The notes beneath the pieces were generated by a model that did no database searches, had not been told where the DNA came from, and was given only the letters and a program-made list of their open reading frames with translations. This document shows positions 545-53,850 of a stretch of DNA of 63,863 bases, in pieces (the stretch's first letter is position 1; every line of letters begins with the position of its first letter). Made by a program: the position numbers and the translations under genes. Source of the DNA: Candidatus Baltobacteraceae bacterium. Lineage in GTDB: Bacteria > Vulcanimicrobiota > Vulcanimicrobiia > Vulcanimicrobiales > Vulcanimicrobiaceae. The stretch covers positions 1 to 63,863 of the forward strand of contig DATJTX010000001.1 of NCBI GenBank assembly GCA_035502855.1, read 5' to 3'.

Positions 545-1255
545 TTAGCTGTTGCTGTCGTCGCCGTCGATCAGGCTGGCGAGCAGGTTGTCGCTCTGCG
601 GTTGCGATTGCGCGTACGACGAGAGCGTGTTGATGTTGGTGAAGGCGCTCGACTGCTGGCTGAGCGCACTCTCCAGCGAGGTCGGGTCGATGCCGTCGGT
701 TGCGCTCGCGGCAGACGTGCTGCCGCCGAACAACCCGCTGACCAATCCTTCCACGCCGCCGGTAAGCGCGCCGATCAGGTTGATACTCATTCGTTGTGGT
801 CTCCCTTGGTGTGGCTCGAGTTGCTGGTAATGGCGCAGGACCGAGTCGGCGTAGTCGAGCGTTTGACCGTCGCCCCACGTCGTCTCGGTTCCCGCGCCGT
901 CCGGGCTGCCGGAATTGTACGCGCTGAGCGCTGCACGCACGTTGCCGCCGTAGCGGCGCAGCAGACCGGAGAGCATTCCCGCGGCATAGTCGGCGTTCGC
1001 GCTCGGATTCATCGCGGCACCGGTTTTCGCAAACTCGTGCCAGCGATCGTCGATCTGGAAGAGGCCGCGGCCATGGCCGCCGTCGCCCACGACGTTCCGC
1101 CCGCCGTTGGCACCTGGGCCGCCCGTCTCTTGGGCGGCGACCGCCGCCAGAAGGGCCGGATCGAGGCCGTGCTTGGCGGCGGCCTGGACGATCTCGGGGG
1201 CGTAATGTACGCCTTGGGCGGCCAATCGGCCGGTGAGGGCTCCGAGCGGATTCAT
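545..1255 (-). CDS. Lytic transglycosylase (SLT) domain protein, apparently fused to a second small protein
   Basis: 236 residues. Residues about 18-140 form a lysozyme-like SLT domain: catalytic Glu43 in AAQETGG, the GRGLFQID motif and ALSAYNSG. Such enzymes cleave peptidoglycan glycan strands and often open the wall for secretion systems, pili or phage. Residues about 156-236 (from MSINLIGALTGG) are a separate glycine/serine-rich segment. An AAGGGAG ribosome site lies 10 nt before the ATG at 790 within this frame, and another frame ends with a TGA overlapping that ATG. The native state may therefore be two genes joined by a one-base shift. There is no signal peptide, so export would use another route. 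Start at 1255 is the first ATG; no clear ribosome site precedes it. Confidence 0.7.
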   Translation of the reverse strand: MNPLGALTGRLAAQGVHYAPEIVQAAAKHGLDPALLAAVAAQETGGPGANGGRNVVGDGGHGRGLFQIDDRWHEFAKTGAAMNPSANADYAAGMLSGLLRRYGGNVRAALSAYNSGSPDGAGTETTWGDGQTLDYADSVLRHYQQLEPHQGRPQRMSINLIGALTGGVEGLVSGLFGGSTSAASATDGIDPTSLESALSQQSSAFTNINTLSSYAQSQPQSDNLLASLIDGDDSNS

Positions 1256-1912: not shown

Positions 1913-1941
1913 TTGACAAGACCCTGGCGGGGTTCTACAAT
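1913..1941 (+). promoter_or_regulatory. Strong sigma-70 promoter for the DUF177-rpmF-fab operon
   Basis: TTGACA (1913-1918), a 17-bp spacer and TACAAT (1936-1941) form a near-consensus housekeeping promoter. Transcription would start near 1948, leaving a leader of about 94 nt before the DUF177 ATG at 2042. That leader is almost filled by the hairpin described next. Confidence 0.75.
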
Positions 1942-1953
1942 CGCGTAGTCGTT

Positions 1954-2020
1954 ATGGGGGCTCGCATGGGCTACCCAAAGTAAGCGGCGCTTACTTTGGG
2001 TAGCTCCGGTGGGCCCCCAT
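1954..2020 (+). promoter_or_regulatory. Long leader hairpin with embedded 9-codon uORF, before DUF177-rpmF
   Basis: A perfect 16-bp inverted repeat (1970-1985 and 1989-2004) with a 3-nt loop is flanked by a second 8-bp pairing (1954-1961 ATGGGGGC with 2013-2020 GCCCCCAT). Together they form a nested hairpin filling the 5' leader. ATG at 1954 opens a 9-codon frame (MGARMGYPK) that stops inside the left arm. There is no T-run after the hairpin, so simple intrinsic termination is unlikely. Possible roles are mRNA stabilisation, a protein-binding site, or translation-dependent refolding; none is proven. Confidence 0.6.
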
Positions 2021-2041
2021 CCTACGACGGTCGCAAACGCC

Positions 2042-2455
2042 ATGGCTCGTTCGCACAAGGTCGATATTACCGGGCTCCTCGCGGGCGGTCGGCAGCTCAT
2101 GCTGATCGACGACGAGGTGCCCATCGAGGAATTTGAGGGGATCGCGTTTCCTTCACCGGCCACCGTGCATCTGGAATTACGCTATGTCGACCGGCTGCTT
2201 CATATAGTAGGCACGGTCGATACGCAGGCTCGGGGCGCGTGCGACTCGTGCTTGGAAGAGGTCGACATTCCGGTGCATGCCGACGTCGACGAGCGAATCG
2301 ACCCGAATGCCGGTCGCGACGACGACCCCTTCGGTGAGGGCAACGTCCTAGTCGGGGGACGCGTCGACGTGGCGGATCTCGCGCAGCAGCTCGTGCTGAG
2401 CGAGATGCCGATGGGACTTCGCTGTAGCCGGGCGTGTCCGGGAATCGAATACTGA
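2042..2455 (+). CDS. DUF177/YceD family protein
   Basis: 137 residues from ATG 2042 (MARSHKVDITGLL). The family (YceD; related plant proteins act in 23S rRNA maturation) is almost always encoded directly before rpmF, as here (22-nt gap). The typical cysteine pairs are present: CDSC near residue 69 and CSRAC near the C-terminus, probably binding a metal. A longer reading from GTG 2009 would start inside the leader hairpin and is less likely. A role in large-subunit assembly is inferred from family and neighbour. Expressed from the 1913-1941 promoter. Confidence 0.85.
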   Translation: MARSHKVDITGLLAGGRQLMLIDDEVPIEEFEGIAFPSPATVHLELRYVDRLLHIVGTVDTQARGACDSCLEEVDIPVHADVDERIDPNAGRDDDPFGEGNVLVGGRVDVADLAQQLVLSEMPMGLRCSRACPGIEY

Positions 2456-2477: not shown

Positions 2478-2684
2478 GTGGCAAATCTAAAGTGGAAGAC
2501 GCCGCGCAGTAAAACGCGCAGCCGTCGTGCGGCGAACTGGAAGCTGAACCCGGTCACGACCGTGGAATGCCCCCAGTGTCACCAGCCCAAACGGCCGCAC
2601 TTCGTGTGCGGACATTGCGGCACGTACGACGGCCGTCAGGTCGTTGAAGTCCGCGACGAACACGCCGGTCACGATCGCGATTAG
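2478..2684 (+). CDS. rpmF: 50S ribosomal protein L32
   Basis: 68 residues from a GTG start with GGAG upstream. The N-terminal part is strongly basic (KWKTPRSKTRSRRA). A zinc-ribbon follows, with CPQC at about residues 30-33 and CGHC at about 45-48, the C+ form of L32. Length is normal for the family. It sits between DUF177 and fabH, the order found in many bacteria, except that plsX, usually between rpmF and fabH, is absent. Component of the large ribosomal subunit. Confidence 0.93.
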   Translation: MANLKWKTPRSKTRSRRAANWKLNPVTTVECPQCHQPKRPHFVCGHCGTYDGRQVVEVRDEHAGHDRD

Positions 2685-2693
2685 ACAATCGTC

Positions 2694-3677
2694 TTGACCG
2701 GGGTTAAGATCGCCGGCGTGGGGCATTACGCGCCCGAGCGCATCGTGGACAACCACGATCTCGAGCAATGGCTCGACACGTCCGACGAGTGGATTACGAC
2801 GCGTACCGGAATGAAACGGCGGCACTGGACTTCCGAAAACGAAGCCACCAGTGATTTGGCGTTGGCGGCGGCGCGCAACGCGCTCGCAAACGCCCGCCTG
2901 AACGCGGACGACATCGACGCATTCATCGTCTGTACCGTCTACCCCGACTACCTCTTTCCCGCCACCGCCTGCATCGTTGCCGCCAAACTCGGCGCGCGCG
3001 ACAAAGCCGCCTTCGACATCGAGATCGCGTGCAGCGGCTTCATCTACGGTCTCACCGTCGCCTCGTCGCTCATCCGTGCCGGAGTCTACAACCGGATCGT
3101 GCTGATCGGTGCGGAGACACTCTCGAAACTGGTCAATCGTGACGATCGCGGAACCGCGATTCTCTTCGGCGACGGCGCGGGCGCGGTCGTCCTCGAATCG
3201 AACGAGCGCGATTCGTTCCTCGCCTCGGAGCTCGGCAGCGACGGCAGCCGCCCGGAGCTGTTGCGGGTCGAAACCGGCGGCTCGCGCTGCCCGACCACGC
3301 ATGCCACGCTCGATCGCAAAGCCGACCGCATCCACATGGAAGGCCGCGAAGTTTTCAAATTTGCCGTCACCAAGATGATTGCCGCGACCGATCGTGCGCT
3401 GGCCAAAGCTGCGCTCACCAAGGCCGACGTCGACGTGCTGATCCCGCATCAGGCAAACAAACGCATCATCGATGCGGCGATGAAATATCTCGAAATTCCG
3501 CCCGAGCGCTGCGTGGTCAACATTCAGGAGTACGGCAACACGTCGGCCGCCTCGATCCCGATCGCGCTCTCGGAGGCGGTGCGCGACGGCAAAATCAAGA
3601 CCGACGATGTGATCGTCTTCGTCGGCTTCGGCGGCGGCCTCTCGTGGGGCGCGGTCGTATGGAAATGGGTCGCCTGA
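2694..3677 (+). CDS. fabH: Beta-ketoacyl-ACP synthase III (KAS III)
   Basis: 327 residues. It condenses acetyl-CoA (or a branched acyl-CoA) with malonyl-ACP to start fatty acid synthesis. The catalytic triad is visible: Cys113 (IACSGF), His252 (IPHQANKR) and Asn282 (EYGNTSAAS). The start is TTG 2694, 9 nt after the rpmF stop, giving the family-typical MTGVKIAGVGHYAPE. The TGA stop overlaps the fabD ATG (TGATG), so translation is coupled. Length is normal. Confidence 0.94.
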   Translation: MTGVKIAGVGHYAPERIVDNHDLEQWLDTSDEWITTRTGMKRRHWTSENEATSDLALAAARNALANARLNADDIDAFIVCTVYPDYLFPATACIVAAKLGARDKAAFDIEIACSGFIYGLTVASSLIRAGVYNRIVLIGAETLSKLVNRDDRGTAILFGDGAGAVVLESNERDSFLASELGSDGSRPELLRVETGGSRCPTTHATLDRKADRIHMEGREVFKFAVTKMIAATDRALAKAALTKADVDVLIPHQANKRIIDAAMKYLEIPPERCVVNIQEYGNTSAASIPIALSEAVRDGKIKTDDVIVFVGFGGGLSWGAVVWKWVA

Positions 3678-53693: not shown

Positions 53694-53781
53694 CGGAGGG
53701 GGAGGGATTCGAACCCTCGAGACGCTTATCACGTCTGCTCGCTTTCCAAGCGAGTGCCTTCAACCGCTCGACCACCCCTCC
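53694..53781 (-). tRNA. tRNA-Ser (anticodon GGA)
   Basis: 88 nt. The acceptor arms GGAGGGG (5') and CCCCTCC (3') pair fully, with discriminator G. The D arm contains GGTCGAGCGGTTGA, the anticodon stem CTCGC/GCGAG encloses CTTGGAAAG with anticodon GGA (reads UCC/UCU), a long class II variable arm (AGACG..CGTCT) follows, and the T arm has GGTTCGAATCC. CCA is not encoded. The anticodon loop is read on the minus strand; tRNA-Ser is a class II tRNA, as the variable arm shows. Confidence 0.96.
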
Positions 53782-53788
53782 GTAAAGC

Positions 53789-53812
53789 GAGAGGCTCCTT
53801 TCGGAGCCTCTC
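53789..53812 (-). terminator. Terminator hairpin between the lipoprotein gene and tRNA-Ser
   Basis: A perfect 10-bp stem, GAGAGGCTCC (53789-53798) with GGAGCCTCTC (53803-53812), closes a 4-nt loop (TTTC, or GAAA on the minus strand). On the minus strand it lies 38 nt after the lipoprotein stop and 7 nt before the tRNA 5' end, followed by GCTTTACGG. Confidence 0.65.
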
Positions 53813-53850
53813 GTCGATTGGCATCGGCCGAACCAGAGTCCTGGTGTTTC

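Follow-up and report, generated by a model that had tools for sequence, protein, structure and literature searches.

The locus and its promoter

The window analysed here, the whole 63,863-nt stretch of contig DATJTX010000001.1 (assembly GCA_035502855.1), comes from a member of Candidatus Eremiobacterota, soil bacteria of a phylum that has been studied almost only from metagenomes. Near one end it carries an operon in which a DUF177/YceD gene is followed by rpmF, by fabH and, on reading the ORFs further downstream, by fabD-, fabG- and acpP-like genes. A promoter and a structured leader precede DUF177, and the features are as follows:

1913–1941, plus strand: near-consensus sigma-70-type promoter, TTGACAAG...TACAAT
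1948–1952, plus strand: basal helix, 5′ strand GUCGU, at the predicted transcription start, pairing with 2024–2028; same position in the tabulated clade A leaders
1954–1965, plus strand: left arm of the ancestral GC hairpin; homologous hairpin in the sister species and about 30 genera
1954–1983, plus strand: short frame MGARMGYPK (uORF), probably not translated; AUG in a stem, ~6 nt past the predicted start; not conserved
1968–2006, plus strand: species-specific apical extension, an 18-bp stem (16 bp perfect) with loop GGC; missing in the sister species G001
2009–2020, plus strand: right arm of the ancestral GC hairpin, pairing with 1954–1965
2024–2028, plus strand: basal helix, 3′ strand ACGAC; GCGAC, ACGAC, GCAAC or GCAGU in relatives
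2042–2455, plus strand: DUF177/YceD gene (Pfam YceD, E 1.3e-10)
2478–2684, plus strand: rpmF, ribosomal protein L32 (Pfam Ribosomal_L32p, E 2.8e-20)
2694–3677, plus strand: fabH, 3-oxoacyl-ACP synthase III (Pfam ACP_syn_III_C, E 1.7e-40)

The promoter, which the initial annotation had already recognized as near-consensus, consists of TTGACA (1913–1918), a 17-nt spacer and TACAAT (1936–1941), with 11 of 12 consensus matches. Only two sites of the form TTGACA-N16-18-TANAAT occur in the 3.33-Mb genome, one being that of the DUF177 leader and the other lying before a tRNA gene. Within the family, TTGACAAG-TANAAT is present in 70 of 99 genomes, usually one or two times per genome and mostly at the DUF177 operon, and the reversed control pattern gave a single match in the 99 genomes. 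We conclude that the promoter of the DUF177 operon is real and that it is of a strong housekeeping type, near-unique in each genome and fixed at the DUF177-rpmF-fab operon. Judging from the position of the −10 box, transcription most likely starts at about 1948 (+7).

Two further observations concern the surroundings of such promoters. In the window, some 600 bp (1290–1895) separate a lytic-transglycosylase-like gene (545–1255, minus strand) from the promoter; this stretch, which is missing in G001, contains an ORF for a ribbon-helix-helix (RHH) protein (1466–1636, Pfam RHH_1) and, after it, a small ORF (1646–1876) that is membrane-like and has no Pfam match; it looks like a small inserted module. 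In genus g36, a second strong promoter, TTGACAAGTTACTGTCACCACCATATAAT, is conserved from genome to genome (e.g. G066:C101:12512–12540).

Structure and conservation of the leader

The 261-nt region has a predicted folding energy of −136.8 kcal/mol (z −6.7, with none of 200 shuffles as stable), and the leader alone reaches a folding z of −7.6 against shuffles. It can be divided into two layers, an old one comprising the promoter, a near-fixed start and a 5′-proximal GC hairpin, and a new one, the apical stem. An outer stem of 8 bp had been described before and is present at 1954–1961/2013–2020, but that description was incomplete: the stem grows to 12 pairs, two of them G–U (1954–1965/2009–2020), and a basal 5-bp helix (1948–1952/2024–2028) had been overlooked. 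The apical stem pairs 1968–1985 with 1989–2006, and the 16-bp perfect stem reported for it was seen at 1970–1985/1989–2004, closed by the loop GGC. Rfam gave no leader match at the gathering or at a relaxed threshold, ribosomal-protein leader models included, in agreement with the earlier remark that the leader matches no familiar class; the sole candidates, eukaryotic miRNA models scoring below threshold, were rejected, as such models respond to any long hairpin.

DUF177 leaders were gathered from about 90 genomes of the same family as the window genome. The old layer is found in most genera of the family and, with other sequences, in the sister family of the class; a GC-rich hairpin of 8–14 bp, a few bases past the expected start, occurs in about 30 genera. 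In every tabulated leader of clade A, to which the window belongs, the basal helix GUCGU/RCGAC stands 7 bases past the −10 box, where the first transcribed base is expected. A search of 14 genomes from another family of the class showed that most have, before DUF177, a perfect TTGACA-17-TATAAT and a hairpin of different sequence, for example GCCCGTC/GACGGGC followed by CUUUCG. Hairpins of different sequence in the sister family indicate that the hairpin is maintained with free sequence; arms and loops vary widely, and no invariant loop resembling a protein site was seen. Many relatives, those of clade B and the sister family, have an unpaired 5′ end, with several unpaired bases ahead of the hairpin. 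A conserved-looking segment, UYRU...CUGCG or CUAUG, follows the inner stem. Since genera g4, g17, g31, g15 and g19 keep the promoter with a weak or absent hairpin, the hairpin is not essential to the operon. The promoter of genus g19 (G019, G106, G108, G109 and G110; e.g. locus L013) lies only ~11 bases before the aligned DUF177 start, which suggests near-leaderless translation, possibly from a TTG start, and loss of the hairpin.

Base-pairing in the old layer was examined across these leaders. For the inner hairpin, 96% of cells pair in an alignment of 27 leaders that was model-guided, i.e. fitted to the structure (A6), and double changes occur at three of nine pairs (four cells against a shuffled mean of 0.9, a count reached in 1 of 500 shuffles); slid controls were worse or equal. 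In genus g9, arms of differing length change together, one pair being gained or lost on both arms (columns 19 and 34 of alignment A3), with weak column statistics (35/500). The basal helix shows a C–G to U–A double change in two genera (G077 and G103); this was counted by hand, because the MAFFT alignments (A1, A2 and A4) did not align the helix, and on leaders chosen for showing it. An arm-swap test favoured the native arms (0/5000), which is supporting evidence only, because pairing itself had been used to define the arms. There is thus moderate support for a predicted helix kept in relatives with compensatory change; the modest covariation reflects the GC-rich arms. A further helix at the outer 5′ end, seen in the sister family (GATGC/GCATC and similar), seemed to covary as well, but its GATGC strand falls in the interval separating the −10 box from the expected start; this helix is therefore probably not in the RNA, and it was dropped.

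When the window's own genome was searched with the leader model, the matches outside the DUF177 locus were an ilv attenuator, a site next to an flhB-like gene and a hairpin preceding the rplJ region, none of them a clear further copy of the DUF177 leader element. A long perfect hairpin, CCCCATGGTTCGGCCGGC-TGAAA-GCCGGCCGAACCATGGGG, has an MFS-like gene on one side and, on the other, the region that precedes an L10-like (rplJ) ORF (L140, 1630–1680; G000:C29, ~63,890).

Possible roles of the leader

We tentatively suggest that the leader may serve as a 5′-terminal protective stem-loop on the strongly promoted yceD-rpmF-fab mRNA of Ca. Eremiobacterota. The RNA would begin at about 1948 directly with the basal helix and the GC-rich hairpin, as sequence, conservation and folding together predict, the exact start being inferred. 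Such a stem-loop could hide the 5′ end from 5′-end-dependent decay of the RppH, RNase E or RNase J type, and the long polycistronic mRNA would thereby be kept stable. In E. coli and B. subtilis, 5′ hairpins impede conversion by RppH and can stabilise mRNA (PMC3997798). A protective stem-loop would agree with the predicted position at the very 5′ end, with the freedom of sequence and with a large apical insert being tolerated, as well as with the hairpin lying a few bases from the predicted 5′ end and helices that persist despite sequence change. On the other hand, the unpaired 5′ bases in clade B and the sister family weaken protection of the end itself, some lineages keep the promoter without a hairpin, and the conserved-looking stretch behind the inner stem hints that more than stability alone is involved. 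The stem-loops of ompA and papA in E. coli and aprE in B. subtilis resemble the arrangement predicted for the DUF177 leader in that they stand at or within a few bases of the 5′ end of a well-expressed mRNA with no U tract after them. They differ in gene and phylum, and many relatives of the DUF177 leader have several unpaired bases before the stem.

It could also be, although we consider it unlikely, that L32 or YceD binds the hairpin together with the bulge next to it and represses the operon, acting on its translation or its stability. The content of the operon would suit such autogenous control, and YceD is needed for normal 23S rRNA levels (PMC5049393). The helices are conserved, and the hairpin lies 8–25 nt before the start codon; together with the conserved-looking segment, the lack of a Shine-Dalgarno core at −17 to −4 of DUF177 in 39 of the 41 leaders tested leaves room for protein-mediated control by YceD or L32. 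However, arms and loop are highly variable, with no invariant loop of the kind bound by a protein, and the hairpin has been lost in several lineages that keep the promoter. Structured leaders are known before operons with ribosomal protein genes (L10, L20, S15 and others), but the DUF177 leader has no match among them in Rfam, and no L32 leader class was found in Rfam or the literature searched. That the leader represents the first yceD-rpmF(L32) leader class, a lineage-specific RNA of Eremiobacterota by which putative self-control by L32 or YceD would couple ribosome and membrane-lipid synthesis, with UYRU...CUG in the binding site, is a more doubtful proposal again.

Another possibility is that the hairpin is an intrinsic terminator tuning read-through into the operon. 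This we regard as improbable. The GC-rich stem does resemble the hairpin of the ilv attenuator in the same genome, and CUUUC or UUUUCUCG follows the stem in some relatives, but neither the window (CCAUCCUACG after the hairpin) nor most relatives have a U tract, and there is no conserved antiterminator or leader peptide. Among the relatives, T content after the hairpin averages 3 of 8, and at least five T in eight were found in 3 of 33. Terminators of the same genome, namely a tRNA terminator and the ilv-type attenuator, do have clear U tracts, so that termination is unlikely at the DUF177 leader of the window species. The ilv-type attenuator itself (L137, 1397–1545; G000:C31, ~2700–2870) is genuine-looking: it lies before an acetolactate-synthase-like gene and encodes the peptide MLLTALLIVVLVLISRSSPNRLGLTTA (leader peptide MLLTALLIVVLVLIS...), followed by a GC hairpin and then TTTTCTTT.

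With a protective stem-loop as the preferred reading, the DUF177 leader is ordinary in kind, yet it is a new conserved leader and testable. It combines a strong housekeeping promoter and a 5′ hairpin that has been maintained, on an operon that joins ribosome and fatty-acid synthesis. As the resources searched yielded no L32 leader, mRNA stability or autoregulation could readily be studied on this element.

The apical stem and the short frame

The 16-bp stem is the longest perfect hairpin of the window, the runner-up having 11 bp, and Markov sequences with the same dinucleotide content produced no perfect hairpin of 13 bp or more. The stem is absent from G001 and from every other relative examined. 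G001 (...GTCGTTATGGGGGCTCGCCGCAGGGTGGGCCCCCATCCTACGAC...) shares the base and the hairpin, but its tip is a 4-base loop; at this point the window species carries an extra stem of about 40 bases. The apical stem is best read as an expansion of the tip, specific to the lineage, that left the basal helices intact. Its sudden presence relative to the sister species might point to insertion of a mobile or repeat palindrome of the REP or MITE kind into the leader, but this is very improbable: apart from its own two arms there is no exact or one-mismatch copy in its own genome, where matches with up to three mismatches stayed below the control, and the 98 relatives yielded two single one-mismatch matches, no excess over control. 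A repeat-element origin was rejected, no family having been found in the genome or its relatives. Lacking both a second copy and a family, the apical stem would rather have arisen as a local palindrome expansion, a one-off event such as template switching being likelier.

The short frame (ATG GGG GCT CGC ATG GGC TAC CCA AAG TAA) does end inside the left arm as annotated, but its stop codon is supplied by the 16-bp apical stem alone. In G001 the frame opened by this ATG meets no stop in the leader and reads on into DUF177, and the other relatives examined have no ATG there or unrelated frames. Although ATG and stop frame the stem as described, the proposal that translation of MGARMGYPK opens the hairpin and so controls the operon has the least probability of all, since the frame is confined to the window species and its AUG is base-paired and ~6 nt from the predicted 5′ end, with no room for a Shine-Dalgarno site. 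Leader-peptide attenuators (ilv, his, trp) likewise have a short frame before a hairpin, but the frame considered here is not conserved, has no run of regulatory codons and is followed by no U-tract terminator. Like the expanded tip, it is probably accidental, a by-product of that expansion and not a regulator. Of the control element that the initial annotation had proposed, a leader evolutionarily maintained at DUF177-rpmF-fab thus stands, without support for a uORF mechanism, and the case shows that a giant hairpin with a uORF, however conspicuous, can be a decoration that one species has added to a modest conserved element. Elsewhere in the window, an 11-bp perfect hairpin, CGAGAGGCTCC-TTTC-GGAGCCTCTCG (53788–53813), is situated just upstream of a minus-strand tRNA (53694–53781).
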